Positions 16,025-50,350 of a DNA stretch of 64,000 bases are shown here, one piece after another. The notes below the pieces were generated by a model. The model did no database searches. It saw only the letters and a list, made by a program, of their open reading frames with translations, and was not told the origin of the DNA. Position numbers and translations under genes: made by a program. The stretch covers positions 124,001 to 188,000 of the forward strand of contig NZ_JBBMQM010000001.1 of assembly GCF_038900055.1 (NCBI RefSeq), written 5' to 3'. Each line of letters begins with the position of its first letter. Position 1 is the stretch's first letter. The DNA comes from Henriciella sp. AS95 (GTDB lineage Bacteria; Pseudomonadota; Alphaproteobacteria; Caulobacterales; Hyphomonadaceae).

Positions 16025-16768
16025 CTAGTACTCGTAGATTTCCCAGTCCGTCATCTCGATCGTATAGGCCGCGTCGGCAAGATCTGACGTCTGGGTTTGC
16101 GTGCGTAGAGTGCCCTCGATCCAGACCGCCTGAGACAGATCCCTGAGCTTGATCTCCTTGTCCGTTTTCACAAACACAGTCTGGTTTGGCGGCGGCGGCG
16201 GCGCGTGCAGGCAGGCCCCATAATATGGCACCAGAAGGAATTCGCGGATGTTCGCGTCCTTGCCGTATTCGAAAGGCACCGTGTAGCCCGGCAAGCGGAC
16301 TTTCATGCCGTCCATGTCCTTGACGGTGTTGAACGTTCCGATCTGGATCGCCTGGTCAGCCGAAGACCCTTCTGCGACCCCGGACCCGGAATAGAGCATC
16401 GCCATCTGGGCCTGGTACATCTCGGCGAGGCGTTCTTCTTCGCCTTCAGGCATCAGCTCTTCCCAGCCGATTTCCGTAACACCGCGCGCTGCGACAGCGT
16501 CGGCCTTGGCTTTCTCGTCAGCGCCGGCCTGCGCTATGGAGCTATCGTCGCTCGACGCCTCCGGCTCGGGGATCTTATCGCCGATCTGCGGGCCGTCACC
16601 GCTTTCAGCCTTGATCAGAATCGCATCCTTGGCTGCGTCAATGTCGGACGTGTCCGTCTGCTCCGGGATCGCTGGATCTGGCAGATCATCCTGGGGACCG
16701 CCGCAGCCGGCGAGAGCGAGTAGGCCAAATGCGCTGGCGCTGAAAAATAGAGTTTTCATACAGTCCAT
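16025..16768 (-). CDS. DUF3299 lipoprotein, last gene of a Zrg-like metal operon
   Basis: A 247-residue lipoprotein: the signal segment KTLFFSASAFGLLALAGC places the lipobox Cys at about residue 22. Residues 23-110 are an Asp/Ala/Glu-rich linker. The C-terminal half is DUF3299, recognised from VRLPGYTVPFEYG, FLLVPYYGACLHAPPPPPNQ and AVWIEGTLRT. Cys-Leu-His and the poly-Pro loop suggest a metal- or ligand-binding face in the periplasm, but no activity is established. It lies 46 bases behind the FtsX-like permease in the same operon. The start could equally be the ATG at 16759, three codons in. Confidence 0.82.
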   Translation of the reverse strand: MDCMKTLFFSASAFGLLALAGCGGPQDDLPDPAIPEQTDTSDIDAAKDAILIKAESGDGPQIGDKIPEPEASSDDSSIAQAGADEKAKADAVAARGVTEIGWEELMPEGEEERLAEMYQAQMAMLYSGSGVAEGSSADQAIQIGTFNTVKDMDGMKVRLPGYTVPFEYGKDANIREFLLVPYYGACLHAPPPPPNQTVFVKTDKEIKLRDLSQAVWIEGTLRTQTQTSDLADAAYTIEMTDWEIYEY

Positions 16769-16814: not shown

Positions 16815-18086
16815 CTAAACCTTCACGGTCAACCCATCAGCCAGGGACCGCCGAAGGGCCGTCACAGCGGGTATGACACCGATCAGAGTGGCCGCGCCGG
16901 TGACGGCGAGAATGGTCCAGAGGTCAATCATCGCCAGACCCAGGCCTTGAAGCTGCACACCGTAGCTGGAGGAGAGGACGGGTCCCAGCATCAGCAGGCC
17001 AAGCTGTACGACGACAACACCGAACACCGCGCCGATAAAGCCGAGAAGCGCCGCTTCAGCGACCATCAAAAAGAAGATATGTCCCGGTCTCGCGCCGGTC
17101 GCGCGCAGGATCGACATTTCGCGGCGGCGCTCATTGAGGCTGGTCAGAATACTGATCAGGACAGAGACTAGACCGACAGCGATCACGAAGATCGACACAG
17201 CAATCAGAGCGCGCTCAACCACGCCTGTGACCTGCCACAACTCACCGAGCGCTACGCCGGGAATGATCGCCAGCAAAGGCTCGCCAGCCTGGGTGTTCAG
17301 GGCCCGCTGGGTTGAGAGGATGGATCCGCGCCGCTCAAGGCCAAGGAAGACCGCCGTGATCGTCTTCGGCGTCAGGTCGAAACTACGGATCATGTCTTCG
17401 GTGATGGTATCGGCGAGCGGGCTCTTGGTACCCGATTCCCAGCCGACATGGATCGCGGTCATGCCCTCCAGCGGAATATGAATGGTCTGGTCCACAGGCG
17501 TGCCGGTCGGCGCCAGAATACCGGTAACAATGAAGGGTTTGTCGTCATGGTCGGTCAGCCCGCCCGCACCGAGACCGTGGGTGAGCACAATCTCGCTGCC
17601 AAGCCCATAACCAAGCTCTCGCGCCACCCCCGCGCCGAGTACGGCCTGATAGATATCATCGAACTTTCGTCCCTCGGCGACCTCAAGAGCGGTGCCATTG
17701 CCATACTTGTAATGGGTGAAATAGGCGTCATTGGTGCCCATCACGCGGAAACCACGGTGGCTGTCACCGAGCGACACGGGGATGGTCCAGGCCACGTCGC
17801 TGCGGTTCGCGATCTCCTGATAGGTCGGCCAGCTGATTTCCGCCGTCGCATTGCCCAGCCGGAACACCGAATACAGCAAAAGGTTGATCTGGCCTGTTGG
17901 CGCGCCGACGATCAGGTCCGTGCCGGAAATCGTATTGTCGAAACCGGCACGGGCGCCATTGCGCGCCTTGTCGACCCCAAGGAAAAGAGCGACTGAGAGG
18001 GCGACCGCGAGGATCGTCAGAAGGGCAGATCCCTTCCGGTTCATCAGGCTTCGCCAGGCCAGTCCGAGGATCGATCCACCGCTCAT
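16815..18086 (-). CDS. ABC transporter permease, FtsX/MacB type
   Basis: A 423-residue inner-membrane permease. One TM helix near the N-terminus (ALLTILAVALSVALFLGVD) is followed by a large periplasmic MacB-core-like domain (residues about 45-285). Three TM helices lie towards the C-terminus: ALIAVSIFVIAVGLVSVLIS, then AALLGFIGAVFGVVVVQLGL, then WTILAVTGAATLIGVIP. RRREMSILRATGARPGHIFF between them is the cytoplasmic loop that contacts the ATPase, the FtsX signature. This class does not form a classical import pore; it is mechanotransmissive. Its ATG overlaps the stop of the ATPase gene by 4 bases, so the two are translationally coupled. Confidence 0.9.
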   Translation of the reverse strand: MSGGSILGLAWRSLMNRKGSALLTILAVALSVALFLGVDKARNGARAGFDNTISGTDLIVGAPTGQINLLLYSVFRLGNATAEISWPTYQEIANRSDVAWTIPVSLGDSHRGFRVMGTNDAYFTHYKYGNGTALEVAEGRKFDDIYQAVLGAGVARELGYGLGSEIVLTHGLGAGGLTDHDDKPFIVTGILAPTGTPVDQTIHIPLEGMTAIHVGWESGTKSPLADTITEDMIRSFDLTPKTITAVFLGLERRGSILSTQRALNTQAGEPLLAIIPGVALGELWQVTGVVERALIAVSIFVIAVGLVSVLISILTSLNERRREMSILRATGARPGHIFFLMVAEAALLGFIGAVFGVVVVQLGLLMLGPVLSSSYGVQLQGLGLAMIDLWTILAVTGAATLIGVIPAVTALRRSLADGLTVKV

Positions 18087-18790
18087 GCCGGAACCCTCGC
18101 CGTATTCAGCTCTGTCAGATCGACGCTTCGGTCGAAATGAGAGGCCAGCGCGCCATCATGACTGACGAAAAGCAGGGCGGCGCCCGATCGGGACGCTTCC
18201 TCATTCAGCAACGCAATGAAGCGGTCACGCGCATCGGCGTCGAGGGCCGATGTGGGCTCATCTGCGATCAGCAAGCTCGGCCCGCCAATCAACGCACGCG
18301 CGACGGCAACCCGCTGCTGCTGGCCGACTGAAAGCTCTGTCACGGGGCGGGCGAGCAGCTTTTCATCTGTCAGGCCAAGGCGTGCAAGCAAGCGCCGAGC
18401 CTCCTCAACTGGGCCGCCGCCTTCAGCCACCACAGCGCGCCGCGCTTTGGAGAACCGGCAGGGCAGCGTCACGTTCTGCACAACGGAAAGATACGGCACC
18501 AGATTGAACATCTGGAAGATGACCCCGAGATGATCGGCGCGAACCCGGTCCCGCTTCGCGCTGCCGAGCGCCGACATCTCTTCACCCAGAACCCGAATGT
18601 GACCAGCCTGCGGCTCAAGAACCCCTGCGATCAAGCCAAGCAGCGTTGACTTGCCCGACCCGCTTGGCCCGCGCAGAAAGAGCCGCTCACGGCTCGCCAT
18701 ATTGAAAGCGGCGATGTCGAGAAGCGGAGTATCGGCGCCATCCCAGGCAAAGCGCAGATCGCGAATTTCAATGGCAGGCTGGTCAGACAA
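18083..18790 (-). CDS. ABC transporter ATP-binding protein (LolD/MacB type)
   Basis: A 235-residue ATPase pairing with the FtsX-like permease whose gene it overlaps. Walker A is GPSGSGKST at residues 41-49, the signature motif is LSVGQQQRVAVARAL, Walker B is LLIADEPTSALD, and the H-loop is LFVSHDG. The residues around the Q-loop (LGVIFQMFNLVPYLSV) are typical of the MacB/LolD branch. It follows the ZrgA-like lipoprotein gene after 3 bases. The four genes together resemble the zinc-regulated zrgABCDE-type cluster described in Vibrio. Confidence 0.92.
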   Translation of the reverse strand: MSDQPAIEIRDLRFAWDGADTPLLDIAAFNMASRERLFLRGPSGSGKSTLLGLIAGVLEPQAGHIRVLGEEMSALGSAKRDRVRADHLGVIFQMFNLVPYLSVVQNVTLPCRFSKARRAVVAEGGGPVEEARRLLARLGLTDEKLLARPVTELSVGQQQRVAVARALIGGPSLLIADEPTSALDADARDRFIALLNEEASRSGAALLFVSHDGALASHFDRSVDLTELNTARVPA

Positions 18791-18793
18791 GGA

Positions 18794-19432
18794 CTAGCGA
18801 AGCTCCAAAACTGAATTCGATTGCGTCAGCTCTCCGGCAACCTGGTCGGTATCGGAAACAAAGACAGCATCAATCGTCTCCAGTCCCGGATAGTCAGCCA
18901 TTTTGATGAAATCGATGCGACTGATCTCATCAGCGTTTTCGCACGTGTAGACATGCTCGACATCGAGATCAGCATGGCCGTTTGCGAAATGCGTCTCGGT
19001 GGTGGTCATCAGAGGAAGACAACCGGATTCGCGATTAATCTCGACCATTCCGCCGGGCACGGTGAAAGCATCCTTCAGCGCGTTGATCGCTTCGGTTTGC
19101 TCGTCGGTTTCTGCTTCATGCTCAAACCCGATCAAGGACATCAGGGGCGCTTCGAAGGTAATGGTCAATGCGTCGCCGTCGACGCCGGCTGCCAGCGTGC
19201 CGGAGCCGTGAACATGAGCTTCCATGCGCTCGGATTGGCTCGGGTCGTTCGCCGTTCCCTCTGGCGGCAATGTCCGGTCCATGTCGGCGTCGGCGGCCTC
19301 TGTATCCTCGGATGCCTCGTCTGTAGCGGCCGGCGCCGCGACTTCCTTGTCCGCCAGTTCGGTTTTCTCGCAGCCGGCAAGCGACACAAGGCCGACAAGC
19401 GCTACGCCTGCAATAATTATTGAAGCTTTCAT
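18794..19432 (-). CDS. DUF2796 (ZrgA-type) zinc-associated lipoprotein
   Basis: A 212-residue lipoprotein: MKASIIIAGVALVGLVSLAG precedes lipobox Cys21. After an acidic linker, the DUF2796 domain begins with the family hallmark AHVHGSGTLAAGVDGDALTI and continues ITFEAPLMSLIGFEHEA, then LPLMTTTETHFANGHADLDV. The His residues of AHVHG, FEHEA and NGHADLDVEH are plausible zinc ligands. The Vibrio member, ZrgA, has been linked to zinc uptake. Start 19432 was chosen for AAAGGA 8 bases upstream and the good lipoprotein signal; the longer frame crosses the predicted Zur site. It is the first gene of a four-gene operon. Confidence 0.88.
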   Translation of the reverse strand: MKASIIIAGVALVGLVSLAGCEKTELADKEVAAPAATDEASEDTEAADADMDRTLPPEGTANDPSQSERMEAHVHGSGTLAAGVDGDALTITFEAPLMSLIGFEHEAETDEQTEAINALKDAFTVPGGMVEINRESGCLPLMTTTETHFANGHADLDVEHVYTCENADEISRIDFIKMADYPGLETIDAVFVSDTDQVAGELTQSNSVLELR

Positions 19433-19495
19433 GGGAGGGGTCCTTTCAGGACAGAGAATACCGTACGACCAGAAAAAAACGGGTCGCAATCTCGT

Positions 19496-19516
19496 AAATG
19501 CGATACTATAACGTTT
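19496..19516. promoter_or_regulatory. Predicted Zur operator in the divergent zinc-gene promoter
   Basis: The two 10-base arms AAATGCGATA and TATAACGTTT flank a central C. Against the alphaproteobacterial Zur consensus half-site AAATGTTATA (from memory), the left arm matches 8 of 10 and the right arm, read inverted, 9 of 10. The site is 63 bases from the ZrgA-like start and 79 bases from the ZIP start, so one operator could repress both directions under zinc sufficiency. Confidence 0.75.
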
Positions 19517-19595
19517 CCATTCAGGCAATTCGTATTGCGCTAGATATTAACTGCACAAAACTCAGCGCAACACAAAGCAGGGCGGCATCCGATCT

Positions 19596-20423
19596 ATGTG
19601 GTCATCGATTCAGGCACCGCTTTTCTTCGGGCTGATTGCCTGTTTCTGCACGACAGTTGGTCTGATTGTGGTGGCACAGCGTGCCATCTGGAGCGAGCGC
19701 AATGCATCCCTCTTTGGTCTTGCTGCGGCGGGCATGCTGACGACGCTTACATTTCTGCACATCATCCCTGAAGCCTTCCACTTTTCGCTGAATGCGCCTG
19801 TCTGGCTGGCTGTTGGCTTTTTCAGCGGGCTTTTACTGCACAATGGCGTGAAAACCGCTTTTCCAAGCGAAGATGGCATCGCGCATCGCCATGAAGCACT
19901 GACACCGATCATCGCCATCGCGGTCCATTCCTTTCTGGACGGGGTTATCTATGCCGTGACATTCGCCGCGAGTTTCTCTGCCGGTGTCTATGCGGCGGTG
20001 GGACTGACGCTGCATGAATTCCCGGAAGGCGTTATCGCTTTCGCAATCCTGCGCCGGTACGGTATTTCTAACGTCCAGGCGTTCTGGCTGGCCTTTCTGG
20101 CTGCCGCTGCAACGACGCCGCTCGGTGTGATTGTCGCTGGCCCCTTTATGTATGGGCTCGATAATGACACGATCGGTTCACTGTTTGCGGTGTCGGCAGG
20201 CCTGCTGATCTTTGTGGCGACAGGCCCTCTGATGGCCCCGCTCAAGGAGATGCAACCCGTACGCGGACTGACAGCCATTGCCGCTGGTGCCGGGGCCGCG
20301 ATCCTGCTGGTTCTCGCTCCAATCCAGGGCCATGGCCACGAAGACGGTCATGATGACGAGCATACCTTGCCGGCATCTGGCCATGCGAGTGAGGGTTCGC
20401 ATGATGAGATACGCCCAATCTGA
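19596..20423 (+). CDS. ZIP family divalent metal (zinc) transporter
   Basis: A 275-residue inner-membrane protein with about eight TM helices. The paired metal-site motifs of ZIP proteins are present: HSFLDG at residues 111-116 in TM4 and HEFPEG at 140-145 in TM5. A further histidine cluster, LTFLHIIPEAFH, lies near residues 51-62. The C-terminus is a short His/Asp-rich tail (HGHEDGHDDEH, then SGHASEGSHDE), as in many zinc transporters. ZIP proteins move Zn(II) and sometimes Fe(II) or Mn(II) into the cytoplasm. It is divergent from the ZrgA-like operon with a Zur-like site between, and overlaps the HupE gene by 23 bases. Confidence 0.93.
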   Translation: MWSSIQAPLFFGLIACFCTTVGLIVVAQRAIWSERNASLFGLAAAGMLTTLTFLHIIPEAFHFSLNAPVWLAVGFFSGLLLHNGVKTAFPSEDGIAHRHEALTPIIAIAVHSFLDGVIYAVTFAASFSAGVYAAVGLTLHEFPEGVIAFAILRRYGISNVQAFWLAFLAAAATTPLGVIVAGPFMYGLDNDTIGSLFAVSAGLLIFVATGPLMAPLKEMQPVRGLTAIAAGAGAAILLVLAPIQGHGHEDGHDDEHTLPASGHASEGSHDEIRPI

Positions 20424-21258
20424 TGGTGCGCGGTCACGCCTGACCATCTGGCGCCGTGCCGGGCTGGCCCTTGTGCTCGGCCTCCTGGCGCTGAGCCTGT
20501 TCCAGCAACTTGCCGCTGCTCATCCGGCAGATGAGTTCTGCACGCCCGGCGGCGGGCTCGACCCGGAACTCTGCCGCGCCTTGTCAGAAATGGACCGCTC
20601 GTCCACGGCTGACGGCACGATCGAAACAGCCCAGCCCACACAGTATTCCGGCATGGAGAATGTTGACCTCGACCGTTCCGGGTTCGAGACCTTCTTTGTC
20701 TATGTCTCCGGGGGCGTGCGCCACATCCTGCCCGGCGGCTATGACCACATTCTGTTTATCCTCGCCATTTTCCTCGCTTCGCCGCGGATGAAGCCGCTGC
20801 TTATCCAGATTTCTTGCTTTACCGTCGCGCACACAATCACGCTGGCTGTGGTGGCAGCGGGCGTTTTCGACCCGGACCCGGACATCGTGGAGCCATTGAT
20901 CGCAGGCACCATCGCTATCGCCGCCTTCGAGAACATCCTGTTCGGACGCATGACGCGGCTCCGTCCAATTCTCGTTTTCGCATTCGGTCTCATCCACGGC
21001 ATGGGCTTTGCCGATTATTTCCTGAGCCAGGGCCTGCCCGACGGCATGTTCTGGACCGCGCTGATCGGCTTCAATATCGGCGTCGAGATCGGCCAGCTCG
21101 CTGTCGTCGGCCTGGCTTTCGCCGCCTCGCTTTATTTCCGCGGCGTGCTGAAACAGGCGTCCCGAATGGACCTCTATCGCCCGATGATCGTCATTCCAGT
21201 GTCACTAGCCATCGGTGTGACCGGTCTCGTCTGGACCTTACAGCGCCTCTACGGCTAG
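20401..21258 (+). CDS. HupE/UreJ family membrane protein
   Basis: A 285-residue membrane protein. An N-terminal signal-anchor (LALVLGLLALSLFQQLAAAH) leads to a periplasmic segment of about 85 residues with CTPGGGLDPELC. The HupE/UreJ core has HILPGGYDHILFILAIF, SCFTVAHTITL, FENILFGRM and FGLIHGMGFADYF over six TM helices. HupE/UreJ proteins are regarded as nickel or cobalt permeases; related proteins in zinc-regulated operons are suspected of carrying zinc. GYDH, VAHT and GLIHGMG supply likely metal ligands. The start overlaps the end of the ZIP gene by 23 bases, so the two are translationally linked and share the Zur-like promoter. Confidence 0.88.
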   Translation: MMRYAQSDGARSRLTIWRRAGLALVLGLLALSLFQQLAAAHPADEFCTPGGGLDPELCRALSEMDRSSTADGTIETAQPTQYSGMENVDLDRSGFETFFVYVSGGVRHILPGGYDHILFILAIFLASPRMKPLLIQISCFTVAHTITLAVVAAGVFDPDPDIVEPLIAGTIAIAAFENILFGRMTRLRPILVFAFGLIHGMGFADYFLSQGLPDGMFWTALIGFNIGVEIGQLAVVGLAFAASLYFRGVLKQASRMDLYRPMIVIPVSLAIGVTGLVWTLQRLYG

Positions 21259-21330: not shown

Positions 21331-22197
21331 ATGAAAAAACGGCTTCTTCGATATCTGAGCGCGCTGACGGTTTCGATCATCTGCACCTATTCGGGGCTTC
21401 AACGCGTCGCCTTCGCAGACACGGCTCAAGTGCCAGCTTGCGGAATGAACGATGTTTTTGCCTGGCAGGACAGGCTGGAGAACCCCACGGAAGAAGCAAC
21501 GCCCGCCTACGTCCAGCGCGTCAGCGAAGCCTTCATCACCGATTGCCCGAACCGCCCGGAAGTCGCCGAGGCCCATCGGATTGCCGCCCTCGCTGCGGGT
21601 TGGGGAAATGACGCAGAAGCGTCTGCAGTCCACTTTGAACAGGCCGGCTATGTCACGGACGTCGAGTCGCTATTCATGAACGCCGCAGTGCTTTTAGCCA
21701 CCGGCGAAAATGAGAGAGCCTGGCGCATGCGCGACCAGGCGATTGAATTCTGGCTCGCCCGGATGACCCGCCGCGGCATTGCCGACGTGGAAGTTGATGA
21801 GCTGAAAGGCGGCGACCTCATCTCGCTGCGGTTCCGCGAGACCGATGCAGACCTGCGCCAGTCCCGCCTATGGATCGTCAAACCGGATGGCGCTGGCTGG
21901 CCGGCGGCCCTCAGCATATCTTCGGATCGCCAGCTCAATGCCTTTCACAAGATGCGGGCTGGGCAGGACGCCAGCGACCTTCAGCTGATCCGTCTCTATC
22001 GATGCACCAGCCGCAAATTGCTCGGACGTGGGAGCAAGCCGGTTTCAGATGAAGAGATCTCCGCAACGGCCACCGCCGCTCTGCAGGCCTATCTTTTTGC
22101 CCCTGACATTCCGAAATCCGGCGAGTTCGAAACCTGCCTGTTTGCGCAACGCATGTTGCCGGACATGACGTCCGGCAACGCGATTGCAATCCAGTAG
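21331..22197 (+). CDS. Exported protein of unknown function
   Basis: A 288-residue protein with a signal peptide (MKKRLLRYLSALTVSIICTY, cleavage likely after FADTA near residue 32). The mature N-terminal half is alanine- and glutamate-rich and predicted helical (AEAHRIAALAAGWGNDAEAS, then LFMNAAVLLATGENERAWRM), reading like tetratricopeptide-type repeats. The C-terminal half has a strand-rich stretch (SRLWIVKPDGAGWPAALSIS) and two cysteines. I do not recognise a family. It has its own AGGG ribosome site 73 bases after the HupE gene and could be an extra member of the metal operon or an unrelated gene. Confidence 0.7.
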   Translation: MKKRLLRYLSALTVSIICTYSGLQRVAFADTAQVPACGMNDVFAWQDRLENPTEEATPAYVQRVSEAFITDCPNRPEVAEAHRIAALAAGWGNDAEASAVHFEQAGYVTDVESLFMNAAVLLATGENERAWRMRDQAIEFWLARMTRRGIADVEVDELKGGDLISLRFRETDADLRQSRLWIVKPDGAGWPAALSISSDRQLNAFHKMRAGQDASDLQLIRLYRCTSRKLLGRGSKPVSDEEISATATAALQAYLFAPDIPKSGEFETCLFAQRMLPDMTSGNAIAIQ

Positions 22198-22208: not shown

Positions 22209-23678
22209 TCAGCTCGCCCGGCGGCGACGATAAGGTCTGACCTTCTTGCGCTCATCCTGCATGAGCCTCCAAGGCTTGTACGCCTCCAGCGGAAACAGTG
22301 TGCACTGGCGCTCATCGTTTGACGCATCTCCGTCGCTCTGGGCCGGACGCCGGCTCTCACCCGGCACCTCGTCTCCGAAAAAAGGATTCTGCTGAGCCAG
22401 TCTGGAGAGGATGCGATCTTCCAGATAACTCGGCCGGTGGCAGAGCTTCGGGTCATCGCCATTCATCGCGACCACCATCTGGTCGCGGCTGAGATCACGA
22501 AAGATGGTCGGATTGTCGATGCCTAGCGCCTCGGCGGCACCCTTGGCGCTTCCCGCACCAAGCCGCCCGAAAATCTGCACCGCCTGGCAATTGCTGATCA
22601 GCGTCTCCCAGTCAGGGTAGAGCCGCTTGATCTGCGCCGGGTCCTGCCAGAAGCTCCAGGTGCGCACGCCATAGCCCCTGAGCAGGGTCAGCGAGGACCT
22701 CAGCGGATCGAATGTGCCAAGCTGAGCGGCTTCATCGATCAGGAAGAGCGTATGCATGTCAGGCCGCTTGCGGCGCCGGCACATCAGTGAAAACAGCGCC
22801 CCGACCCACATGCGCAGCACCGAGCCGTGCGACTGCATCATATGCGGTGGCAGGACGAGGTAGATCGTCATCGGGTCGCCGCGGGTGACGGCGTTCAGGT
22901 CAAAGGACGAGGTGTAGAGACTGTTCATCATCGAGTCGCCACGAAACACGTCCAGCGCATCGGCCGCGATCGAAACGATGGACTGGCGCGTCCGCTCGGC
23001 CGGACCACTGATGCCGGCATGGGTCATGCGAACCTCATTGTGCCGGGACGTGCGCAGCGCCTCGATCACCGATTCCTCCTCCAGAGAGGCCCTGTGCAGG
23101 ATCTCACGCACCTTGAGCAGGTTTCGATCTCCGGCTGGCATGTCGTGGCACACGTGCAGGATCAGGCCTGTGATGAGCTGCGTCGCGCGGTTCGACCAAT
23201 AGGGGTCCGTTTTCAGCACAGGCGTGATCATGCTGGCGATCATCGCCGCATCATCGGTACAGTCGGCATATTGCGGATCGACCAGTTCAAGCGGGTTAAA
23301 CCGGGAGGGTTCCTGACCGCTGATACCGAATGGATCAATGACGTGGACATCCTGTCCCATCTGGCGGCGCCGCTCTGCTGTGACCGCAGCGTTCTCGCCC
23401 TTGGGGTCAATCACAATGACCGGACCAGCATAGGTCAACAATGTCGGGATGATGCAGCTCACGCCCTTGCCCGACCCGGTCGGGGCGATTGTCAGGATGT
23501 GGCCGTCGCCGCCCATTTCGATCGGCTCAACAGGCCTGCCCCCGGTATCGCCTGGCGGCTGGGAGAAGCCCATACCGGTCGCCTGATCGGACGGCGTCTG
23601 CCACCCCAGAACGATGGTCTCTCCATCATGGTCGCGAAAAGGACTATAGGTGTTTGGCAGCGTGTCGTTTCTCGACAT
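22209..23678 (-). CDS. TraG/VirD4-like coupling ATPase without membrane anchor
   Basis: A 489-residue ATPase related to type IV secretion coupling proteins, which bring DNA-protein substrates to the secretion channel. Walker A is APTGSGKG at residues 65-72; IVIDPKGENAAVTAERRR follows; Walker B is LFLIDEAAQLG near residue 300, then SFWQDPAQIKRLYPDWETLI, as in TraG. The usual two N-terminal TM helices are missing: the protein starts MSRNDTLPNTYSPFRDHDGE and is soluble throughout. GGGAG precedes ATG 23678. No relaxase, VirB genes, integrase or repeats occur nearby, so it is an orphan copy. Confidence 0.82.
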   Translation of the reverse strand: MSRNDTLPNTYSPFRDHDGETIVLGWQTPSDQATGMGFSQPPGDTGGRPVEPIEMGGDGHILTIAPTGSGKGVSCIIPTLLTYAGPVIVIDPKGENAAVTAERRRQMGQDVHVIDPFGISGQEPSRFNPLELVDPQYADCTDDAAMIASMITPVLKTDPYWSNRATQLITGLILHVCHDMPAGDRNLLKVREILHRASLEEESVIEALRTSRHNEVRMTHAGISGPAERTRQSIVSIAADALDVFRGDSMMNSLYTSSFDLNAVTRGDPMTIYLVLPPHMMQSHGSVLRMWVGALFSLMCRRRKRPDMHTLFLIDEAAQLGTFDPLRSSLTLLRGYGVRTWSFWQDPAQIKRLYPDWETLISNCQAVQIFGRLGAGSAKGAAEALGIDNPTIFRDLSRDQMVVAMNGDDPKLCHRPSYLEDRILSRLAQQNPFFGDEVPGESRRPAQSDGDASNDERQCTLFPLEAYKPWRLMQDERKKVRPYRRRRAS

Positions 23679-23791
23679 TTGGAACTCCCTGTTGATTGCC
23701 GGACCTGTGGAAAGGCTGGAACAAACAGGGAAATGGAACAACCCAAAACTTCGAGATATTGGCCTTATTCATGGCGGCGATTCCCGCCATA

Positions 23792-47792: not shown

Positions 47793-47813
47793 AATTGTTA
47801 CTTGGTAACATCA
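47793..47813. promoter_or_regulatory. Predicted Zur operator before the ZnuD-like receptor operon
   Basis: A perfect inverted repeat TGTTAC (47796-47801) and GTAACA (47805-47810) around TTG, set in a wider AATTGTTAC/GTAACATCA context. This corresponds to the TGTTA...TAACA core of the Zur consensus. It touches the start codon of the 101-residue protein at 47813, so bound repressor would sit over the transcription start. Confidence 0.62.
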
Positions 47814-48118
47814 TGCGTAGCGCCACCTCCTCCCTGTCGATCAAGGTGATCCTTGCGGCCCTGTTTATCTGGGTTCAGGGCGCTGCCTTGTTTGATGCGG
47901 CCGCACATGGCGAAGCGCCTCACGATCACTATGGTGTCGCCTGTGAGCTGACCAAGGCGGTTGCGACCAAGGTCGCCCCGGTCCCGGTCTGCAATGTCCT
48001 TCCGGCGCCGCCCGTCTCAGTGGTTACTGCGACGCCTTTCGTGCAAAACTTTCGGTCCTGGTCGCGCCCGCCCGGCCAAGCCCCGCCTCCGCGAAGTCCG
48101 CCCACCTTCCATCAATAG
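47813..48118 (+). CDS. Small exported His/Cys-containing protein upstream of ZnuD-like receptor
   Basis: A 101-residue protein with signal peptide RSATSSLSIKVILAALFIWV ending around AALFDAAA. The mature N-terminus HGEAPHDHYGVACELTKA clusters three histidines and a cysteine, a plausible metal site; a second cysteine follows at PVCN. The C-terminus is Pro/Arg-rich (PPGQAPPPRSPPTFHQ). I know similar short proteins in front of zinc-type TonB receptors but no named family. No ribosome-binding site is visible and the Zur-like dyad reaches the ATG, so the mRNA may be leaderless. It lies 63 bases before the receptor gene. Confidence 0.7.
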   Translation: MRSATSSLSIKVILAALFIWVQGAALFDAAAHGEAPHDHYGVACELTKAVATKVAPVPVCNVLPAPPVSVVTATPFVQNFRSWSRPPGQAPPPRSPPTFHQ

Positions 48119-48181: not shown

Positions 48182-50350
48182 ATGCCATCCCAAACCTTTC
48201 GCCGCACGCTTGCGGCAACCCTGCTGCTGGGTAGTTGCCCACTCGCATTCGCACAGCAGGCAACCAGCGAAGCCCCCGAAGAAACCCCGGAACGGCTTTC
48301 CACCGTCATCGTCAGCGGCGTCGGCCCGCAGCGCGAGACCGACGAAATGATCGGCAATGCAACCGCCGTCACGCGTGAGGATATCGTCCAGAACCTGCAG
48401 GCCTCCCTTGGCAACACCCTCGACAGCCAGCCGGGCGTATCGACCACCCACTTCGGACAGGCTGCAAGCCGCCCCGTACTCCGCGGCCTTGGCGCTGAGC
48501 GCGTCCTGGTCCTGACCAATGGTATCGGCGTCATCGACGCCTCGGCCGCTTCGCCAGACCACCAGGTCGCCGCGGACGGGATCGATGCCGAGAAGATCGA
48601 AATCCTGCGCGGACCAGCGGCACTTGCCTATGGCGGCCAGGCAATTGGCGGTGTCGTCAATGTGATTGACGGCCTGATCGCCGAAGAGCTTCCGGACGAG
48701 CCTGTCTCGGGCGAAGCCTATGGCGCGCTGAACAGCGTCAATGATGGCGGCACCGAAGGCGGCGCAAAAGGCAAGTTCGTGGCCGGCCCGTTCGTCCTGT
48801 CACTCTCGGCCAGCACGCGCGATTTTGACAATTATGACATTCCTGACTTCGCAGAGTCCTCCAGACTGCGCGCGCTTGAGGATGCAGACCATGAGGAAGA
48901 GGAAGGCGAAGAAGAAGAGCATGAAGAGCACGAGGAAGTGCGCGATACGCTCGAGAACTCCTTCGTGGAAACCGACTCCCTTGCGGCAGGCCTGTCATGG
49001 GTCGGCGATTCGGCCTTTGTCGGCATAGCGGTGCGCCAGCAGACAGCGCTTTACGGCCTGCCGGGCCACAGCCACGAGCATGAGCACGAGGAAGAAGAAG
49101 GAGAAGGGCCAGGAGAGGAAGAAGGTGAAGAGCACGAAGAAGAAATGCCCTTCATCGACCTCGAGCAGACCCGTTACGACATCCGCGCTGGCGCTGATAT
49201 AGACTTCGGGCCATTCACGCGGATCGCCGGTAATGCGTCCTTCGCAGACTATGAACACACCGAATTCGAAGCCCCGGGCGAACCTGGCACCGTCTATGAA
49301 AGTGATGGCGCAGAGGGCCGGGTAGAACTCGGCACAGCCTTTGGCGAGTTTGACGGTGCAATCGGTCTGCAGGTCCTCGATAAGTCGCTCGACGCTTTTG
49401 GCGATGAAGCCTTCATCACCAAGACCGACACCAAATCGACTGGCCTTTTCCTCTATCAGACACGCGAATGGGACAGTGGTTTCGGCGTCGAAGGCGGCCT
49501 GCGCTACGATTCGACAGAATTGGAAAACATTAACGCTGGCACGCGCACATTCGACCTCTATTCCAGCTCATTCGGCATTCACCAGCATTGGGACAATGGT
49601 CTGTTTGTTGGTGGCCAGATCAGCCTGACGGATCGCGCGCCTACAGAGAGCGAACTCTTCGCAGATGGCGCTCACCTTGCAACGGAGCAGTACGAGGTTG
49701 GCGATACGTCCCTCGATAAGGAACGCGGCCTGAACCTTGAGGGAACCGTGCGCTGGCGCGGCGACAACGGCTTCGGTGTCGGCGCAAACCTTTTCCGCTC
49801 AGAGTTTGACGGCTTCATTTATCTCGCCCCGGGTACAACCGTGGAAGAGGGCGCTATCGTCGACGAGGTTGATGAGCTGCCGGTTTACACCTTCGTTCAG
49901 CGTGATGCGACATTCACCGGCGGCGAGATCTATGCCGACTATGAAATCGATGACGGCGCTCTGGGGGCAGACTGGCGCGCGAAAGCGAATGTCGACTTTG
50001 TGTCGGCTGACCTTGATGAAGGCGGCAATCTACCGCTGATCCCGCCCCTGACCTTCAATGCGTCGCTTGATGCTGACTGGGGCCTGTGGAGTGCAGGCGC
50101 AAGCGTGACCGTCGCGGCCGAGCAGGACGACACAGGTGAGGGCGAATTGCCGACTGACGGCTACACCACGCTCGACCTCAGGACTGCGTTCTCGCTGGCT
50201 GATGTCGGAATGGGCCAGGAAGGCACTGAGCTCTTCCTTGAAGCCCGCAATGTGACCGATGAAGAGGTCCGCTATGCGACCTCTGTCCTGAAGGACACCG
50301 TTCCGGCTCCGGGACGCAATATTCGCGGCGGCGTTCGCCTCGTTTTCTGA
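48182..50350 (+). CDS. TonB-dependent receptor, ZnuD-like (putative zinc uptake)
   Basis: A 722-residue outer-membrane receptor: signal peptide to AFAQ near residue 25, then a plug with RLSTVIVSGVGPQRETDEMI, SQPGVSTTHFGQAASRPVLR and IEILRGPAALAYGGQAIGGV, and a barrel ending in LVF with terminal Phe. Two extracellular-type loops are extremely Glu/His-rich: about residues 237-256 (EEEEGEEEEHEEHEE) and about 296-323 (GHSHEHEHEEEE, then EEEGEEHEEE). Neisserial ZnuD uses comparable His-rich loops to capture zinc. The preceding Zur-like dyad and small His-bearing gene support zinc; copper or nickel cannot be excluded. Confidence 0.88.
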   Translation: MPSQTFRRTLAATLLLGSCPLAFAQQATSEAPEETPERLSTVIVSGVGPQRETDEMIGNATAVTREDIVQNLQASLGNTLDSQPGVSTTHFGQAASRPVLRGLGAERVLVLTNGIGVIDASAASPDHQVAADGIDAEKIEILRGPAALAYGGQAIGGVVNVIDGLIAEELPDEPVSGEAYGALNSVNDGGTEGGAKGKFVAGPFVLSLSASTRDFDNYDIPDFAESSRLRALEDADHEEEEGEEEEHEEHEEVRDTLENSFVETDSLAAGLSWVGDSAFVGIAVRQQTALYGLPGHSHEHEHEEEEGEGPGEEEGEEHEEEMPFIDLEQTRYDIRAGADIDFGPFTRIAGNASFADYEHTEFEAPGEPGTVYESDGAEGRVELGTAFGEFDGAIGLQVLDKSLDAFGDEAFITKTDTKSTGLFLYQTREWDSGFGVEGGLRYDSTELENINAGTRTFDLYSSSFGIHQHWDNGLFVGGQISLTDRAPTESELFADGAHLATEQYEVGDTSLDKERGLNLEGTVRWRGDNGFGVGANLFRSEFDGFIYLAPGTTVEEGAIVDEVDELPVYTFVQRDATFTGGEIYADYEIDDGALGADWRAKANVDFVSADLDEGGNLPLIPPLTFNASLDADWGLWSAGASVTVAAEQDDTGEGELPTDGYTTLDLRTAFSLADVGMGQEGTELFLEARNVTDEEVRYATSVLKDTVPAPGRNIRGGVRLVF

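Follow-up and report, generated by a model that had tools for sequence, protein, structure and literature searches.

In the 3.87-Mb genome of Henriciella sp. AS95, we identified a predicted operator for the regulator Zur that lies between two divergent operons encoding candidate zinc transporters. The stretch we analysed (64 kb, hereafter the window) carries zrgA-zrgC-zrgB-zrgE on the minus strand and, across a gap of 163 bp, a ZIP-HupE gene pair on the plus strand, all called with Pfam family profiles. This gap contains one palindrome, the 21 bp AAATGCGATACTATAACGTTT at 19496-19516, with a centre that is 74 bp away from the start of zrgA and 90 bp away from that of ZIP. We propose, with a probability of about 0.77, that this palindrome is a Zur operator common to the two divergent promoters, which would silence both operons when zinc is plentiful. 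An earlier sequence-only reading had described a divergent zrg-like operon (DUF2796/ZrgA, ATPase, permease and DUF3299 genes) opposite a ZIP-HupE pair, had matched the halves of the site to the Zur half-site AAATGTTATA at 8 and 9 of 10 positions, and had predicted one operator for both operons. Pfam confirmed the gene calls and the counts of agreeing positions were correct, whilst the shared operator was supported by conservation across the Hyphomonadaceae, by similar boxes at the genes that encode a ZnuD-like receptor and an exporter of the CDF family, and by the presence of a Zur-like gene.

Conservation across the family is the decisive evidence for the predicted operator. Relatives were scored with a symmetric, 15-base matrix built from five Caulobacter (PMC4176598, Table 1) and five Paracoccus (PMC5387054, Table 7) Zur sites, which uses no window sequence and is referred to below as the literature matrix. 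Of 75 relatives scanned, 74 gave a box of at least 8 bits at 56-105 bp upstream of ZIP and the remaining one was masked, where dinucleotide shuffles predicted 3.1 boxes and coding controls 0; a first set of loci that included the window had the box in 34 of 34 (1.8 expected). The operator core, a 15-mer at 19499-19513, reads TGCGA-N5-TAACG, and the pattern TGnnA-N5-TnnC(A/G) was retained in 67 of 74 loci while the central five bases varied (TACTA, CATTA, CTATA, CCATA, CAATA and CACTA were seen), as is expected of a dimer site.

The gene order around the box is conserved as well. ZrgA matches were present in 83 of 105 family genomes, and 90 slices of sequence were taken around them, several genomes contributing more than one slice and some slices stopping at contig ends. 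Family profiles placed an ABC permease near zrgA in 76 of the 90, and in 73 of these 76 clusters ZIP was divergent from zrgA; the exceptions were L083, L332 (on a contig of 3.7 kb) and L061, which has lost ZIP and retains HupE. A further two slices, L324 and L337, have a divergent ZIP and end before the permease. The remaining 12, which include an ABC-less zrgA type and genera g5 and g10, have neither a nearby permease nor ZIP, and one of them (L352) has no ZrgA by profile. The pairing of zrg with ZIP was found in genera g1, g4, g6, g7 and g9, and not in g5 or g10. HupE was present in 27 of the 73 clusters with a divergent ZIP. The constant divergent partner of zrgA is ZIP and HupE is optional. 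The HupE half of the 'ZIP/HupE route' in the sequence-only reading is therefore unsupported, and so is its description of that route as passive.

Similar boxes are found at other genes of the same genome. The genome's only perfect TGTTA-N5-TAACA, TGTTACTTGGTAACA, lies two bases before the start codon at 47813 of an operon that encodes a 101-amino-acid protein (matched by none of the Pfam or NCBIfam models at E 0.01) and a TonB-dependent receptor. The best NCBIfam model for the receptor was ZnuD (338 bits, E 1.3e-100), under the cut-off of 950, and we hence call it ZnuD-like only. This receptor was matched in 29 of 29 genus genomes, and a box of at least 8 bits was found upstream of it in 23 of these (1.8 expected), 373-396 bp upstream in 14 genomes (L245-L258) and nearer in the others, three of which have it overlapping the estimated start. 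A matrix derived from the relatives' zrg/ZIP boxes ranks position 47796 second in the window; the promoters of unrelated genes therefore cross-recognise. With that matrix, the palindrome upstream of the ZitB-like CDF exporter gene reached 8 bits in 14 of 25 orthologues, our own included (1.6 expected). Zur may activate this efflux gene, as it is reported to do with different efflux genes in both Caulobacter and Xanthomonas (PMC4176598).

The regulator itself has a plausible candidate. Two proteins exceed the FUR-family cut-off in this genome, L002 and L001 (C1:86334). The Zur-like protein, L002, has 161 amino acids and a PF01475 match of 37.3 bits (cut-off 23.1); the NCBIfam Zur equivalog was by far the best of its six NCBIfam matches, at 128 bits under a cut-off of 167. 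Its best solved relatives are 7dh7, which bears the label Fur family and is presumably the Zur of Xanthomonas, and 4mtd, which is labelled as a zinc uptake regulation protein. Matches to L002 at E 1e-12 or better occur in 101 of the 105 family genomes. Binding sites of FUR-family regulators can resemble each other, and with two such proteins encoded, the main binder could be another member of the family, such as L001. We consider this very improbable, given that the sites behind the literature matrix come from work on Zur in two alphaproteobacteria, and that the boxed genes are of zinc type (ZrgA, ZnuD-like, ZitB-like).

It should be noted that several observations weigh against a shared Zur operator. 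The site is a palindrome of the TGTTA-N5-TAACA type over or near zinc-gene promoters, with an imperfect left half in which GCGA stands for GTTA (2 of 4 bases). The literature matrix gives it 8.8 bits, rank 3 of 63,986 window positions, which is unimpressive alone; by extrapolation about 180 genome positions would score as high, and the site by itself therefore proves little. A genome-wide enrichment of the canonical box was sought by count and not seen, the pattern being rarer than its reversed control (18 places versus 45). In the family, 7 of the 74 loci have a top-scoring word that is out of register or does not fit TGnnA, the loci are related, so that the family ratios show constraint and not independent trials, and the locus that has lost ZIP, L061, keeps a box remnant of only 3.2 bits. 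With the literature matrix, the CDF box reaches 8 bits in no more than 10 of the 25 orthologues (1.8 expected), and one genome that is 95% complete (G031) keeps both boxes with no Zur match found. Finally, the right half-site also resembles the ZIP -10, which could account for part of the conservation, and the zrgA-side promoter is not kept beyond a few relatives (11 of 70 contexts at 4/6, approximately 7 expected).

Other scans of the genome were more favourable. A looser pattern was enriched (38 places versus 21 for the control), and a 21-mer pattern, partly modelled on the operator itself, found at up to three mismatches two places in the genome, the operator and the region upstream of the CDF exporter gene, with no control matches. 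Taken alone the site is moderate, and the informative evidence is the context of the top matches and conservation. The concern that the site might score no better than random, raised in the sequence-only reading, is thus partly borne out by single-genome scans and overturned by the family conservation, the recurrence of the box and the Zur-like gene.

The arrangement of the predicted promoters suggests how one box could serve both operons. A plain E. coli-type scan of the 163-bp gap found no promoter. Comparison of relatives revealed that, in 55 of 70 distinct contexts, the best hexamer at a distance of 16-18 nt upstream of TATNAC contains TCGC, and that ZIP-side hexamers match TTGACA at 4/6 in 24 of 70 (approximately 8 expected). 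In the window, the two putative -10 hexamers are opposed with one base between them, and together would fill the 15-base core of the box. In Caulobacter, the operator of Zur-repressed promoters is placed over the -10 element or in the interval that separates it from the -35 (PMC4176598). When zinc is plentiful, zinc-loaded Zur would bind the palindrome, which overlaps the ZIP-facing -10 and perhaps also the zrgA-facing -10, and both operons would be silenced. When zinc is scarce, Zur would leave and both operons would be expressed together, making jointly ZrgA, the MacB/FtsX-like ABC pair and the DUF3299 protein on one side, and the ZIP permease and HupE on the other. Outer-membrane entry of zinc would be via the ZnuD-like receptor, from the operon 28 kb away with its own box.

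The recurrent TCGC at -35 distance could also mean that the conserved block is mainly a ZIP promoter (TCGC-type -35, 17 nt, TATAAC), its likeness to a Zur box being partly coincidence and its regulation being other or absent. In favour of this reading, positions 10, 11 and 13, which are inside TATAAC, do not vary among the 22 distinct unmasked variants of the box, and position 9 is kept in 21. However, the left half lies outside the -10, yet position 5 is invariant, and of the 22 variants 21 keep T1 and 20 keep G2; the N5 spacing is constant though the centre changes; and a similar motif recurs at unrelated genes. These features make a mere promoter distinctly unlikely.

To place the shared operator in a broader context, we compared named zrgA loci beyond the family set, namely the best 80 of at least 576 candidates, some of them on short contigs. 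ZIP stood beside zrgA in 8 of 8 Henriciella/Hyphomonas loci and in 0 of the 72 others, a comparison that a very divergent ZIP could escape; the 72 include Vibrio, Pseudomonas, one Hyphomonadaceae-labelled bin (L174), and Glycocaulis, Oceanicaulis and Robiginitomaculum bins. A Zur-like box preceded zrgA in 29 of the 70 named loci scored (1.3 expected overall), and in 22 of the 62 outside Henriciella/Hyphomonas. Predicted Zur control of zrg thus looks widespread, and the gap in common with ZIP looks particular to part of the Hyphomonadaceae. The same counts bear on whether Zur binds the box but strongly controls just one operon, most likely ZIP, the -10 of which is overlapped, hardly touching or even activating the other. 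Family-wide conservation was seen for the ZIP-side promoter alone, and Zur is able to activate, as at Caulobacter CC2720-26 (PMC4176598). Against one-sided control stand the Zur-like boxes before zrgA at 22 of those 62 loci, none of which has a ZIP neighbour, and the behaviour of Vibrio parahaemolyticus, in which zrg genes are up when zinc is limiting and Zur represses zrgA (PMC9817125). We regard it as rather unlikely and favour joint repression of both operons.

Zinc import is the direction of transport that we infer for both systems. No ZnuA match was found in the genome (ZnuGHI-type ABC-2, NRAMP and Pit importers were not searched for), and the window ZIP is the only ZIP match. ZnuA was likewise without a match in 104 of 105 family genomes, and was matched in 11 of 14 control genomes. 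We tentatively speculate that most Hyphomonadaceae, being without ZnuA, place inner-membrane zinc import by the unrelated Zrg ABC and ZIP systems under one bidirectional Zur operator made of two opposed -10 elements one base apart, such that one binding event would set both; the similar box at the ZitB-like exporter gene would let Zur raise efflux simultaneously.

Zrg systems, ZIP transporters and Zur boxes are each already known; the predicted operator common to zrg and ZIP is a new combination of them, and neither it nor a Hyphomonadaceae Zur regulon was found among the matches listed in the open-licence PMC literature. Our proposal predicts how zinc import would be controlled in a marine family almost without ZnuA, and would link the MacB-like Zrg machine, which is poorly understood, with a ZIP permease through conserved co-regulation. 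If it is true, altering one 21-bp site should derepress both operons. The constancy of the ZIP pairing leads us to speculate that Zrg may feed or energise a different permease instead of passing zinc through the membrane itself. The features discussed are listed in Table 1.

Table 1. Genes, predicted promoters and predicted Zur boxes discussed in the text (window coordinates unless a contig or locus is named)
Feature	Position	Strand	Basis or remarks
zrgA, zinc-binding protein family	18794..19432	-	PF10986, 106.8 bits; lipoprotein-type signal (LAGC)
zrgC, ABC ATPase (DevA/LolD/FtsE-like)	18083..18790	-	PF00005
zrgB, MacB/FtsX-type permease	16815..18086	-	PF02687 and PF12704
zrgE, DUF3299 protein with lipoprotein-type signal	16025..16768	-	PF11736, 147.5 bits
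ZIP-family transporter	19596..20423	+	PF02535, 63.6 bits (cut-off 35.1)
HupE/UreJ_2-family protein (HupE_UreJ_2)	20401..21258	+	PF13795, the domain of HupE/UreJ nickel transporters, 146.8 bits, above cut-off
Predicted Zur operator, 21-bp palindrome	19496..19516		Sequence, matrix rank, family conservation
Predicted ZIP promoter: TCGCAA 19484-19489, 17 nt, TATAAC 19507-19512	19484..19512	+	Recurrence in relatives
Predicted zrgA promoter, weak: TTGCCT 19528-19523, 17 nt, TATCGC 19505-19500	19500..19528	-	Window and few relatives
Second predicted Zur box	47796..47810		Rank 1 of 63,986 (literature matrix)
101-amino-acid protein, signal-like N-terminus, first gene after second box	47813..48118	+	Open frame
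ZnuD-like TonB-dependent receptor, His/Glu-rich stretches	48182..50350	+	PF00593, PF07715
ZitB-like CDF exporter with upstream Zur-like palindrome	Gene C1:1418092-1419027; gene and box C1:1418092-1419110		L004: gene 500-1438, box 1501-1521

The genes of the zrg operon gave Pfam matches above cut-off for the whole set of a Zrg zinc ABC system, comprising ZrgA, the ATPase, the MacB-like permease and the DUF3299 protein. ZrgA matched the solved structures of Vibrio cholerae ZrgA (8ezw, E 2.7e-9) and PA4063 (7ahw), and scored 82.4 bits under the NCBIfam ZrgA equivalog cut-off of 185; we assign it as a distant member, by Pfam family and operon and not as an NCBIfam equivalog. The best NCBIfam models for zrgC were DevA, LolD and FtsE, each below cut-off, and zrgE has a solved homologue, 4hsp. 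ZIP scored 38.8 bits under the ZupT equivalog cut-off of 252, and none of the solved structures matched its sequence at E 1; the HupE start overlaps its end by 23 nt. A strict lipobox test, applied to the first 40 slices from the Hyphomonadaceae, was passed by 26 of 34 ZrgA proteins with an ATPase match in the slice and by 0 of 4 without. Of 70 named loci, however, no more than 12 have a lipobox, of which 8 are Henriciella/Hyphomonas and 2 are doubtful (L185, L190). The idea that a LolCDE-like ABC moves lipidated ZrgA was rejected as general, as in Vibrio and Pseudomonas the same ABC accompanies ZrgA proteins that mostly bear an ordinary signal peptide.

The ABC-less zrgA type mentioned above has an ordinary signal peptide; in four loci (L082 5472-7309 in G074; also L074, L076 and L081) it comes immediately after a second zur-like gene and has a further DUF3299 gene behind it. 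G075 likewise has zur and zrgA adjacent. Apparent zur-like remnants were seen in our own genome (C1:1107102-1107353, minus strand, with one in-frame stop) and in G007 (C4:68724-69025), the latter beside a zrgA fragment, as if a second zur-zrgA island were decaying in the genus. Elsewhere on C1, around 58721, a divergent DUF3299-2/MerC pair (L151, 645-1987) has a near-perfect Zur-type box, CGTTATAATATAACA, between its genes, at 22 bits. As a further target it was set aside and is a lead only, the box being present in just 2 of 9 orthologous loci (0.3 expected). Downstream of HupE, a 288-amino-acid protein at 21331-22197 was matched by none of the Pfam or NCBIfam models at E 0.1, and the translation of 22209-23741 resembles a VirD4/TraG-type coupling protein.

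Among the closest known counterparts of this locus are the Zur-controlled, zinc-linked zrg operons established in Vibrio (PMC9817125, PMC9820375), where Zrg is reported necessary for low-zinc growth. Like zrgABCDE of V. cholerae and V. parahaemolyticus, the Henriciella operon encodes ZrgA, an ATPase, a MacB-like permease and a DUF3299 protein; unlike it, zrgA comes first, without a preceding zrgD (DUF2607), and the gap also adjoins a divergent ZIP. The lipoprotein-type signal of Henriciella ZrgA differs from nearly all the Vibrio and Pseudomonas homologues in our named-loci sample. Zinc import by a MacB/FtsX-like ABC is itself unsettled even in Vibrio, and the likeness of ZrgB to MacB, an exporter, was remarked upon by the authors of the V. 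cholerae ZrgA study (PMC9820375). A ZIP-family importer under Zur has precedents in zupT of Cupriavidus metallidurans and Francisella, for which the excerpted text of the review gives no zrg pairing (PMC6103462). As in the Paracoccus denitrificans zur/znuA region, divergent zinc genes have a common promoter region with Zur motifs; in Paracoccus the motifs are two in number and the importer is a ZnuABC of cluster A-I (PMC5387054). The Zur regulon of Caulobacter crescentus includes repressed TonB receptors and an activated efflux operon; unlike here, it has the ABC-2 type znuGHI together with zrpW, and its Table 1 contains no zrg operon or ZIP (PMC4176598). As we predict for zrg and ZIP, one box in that regulon serves a divergent pair, znuK/znuGHI (PMC4176598).

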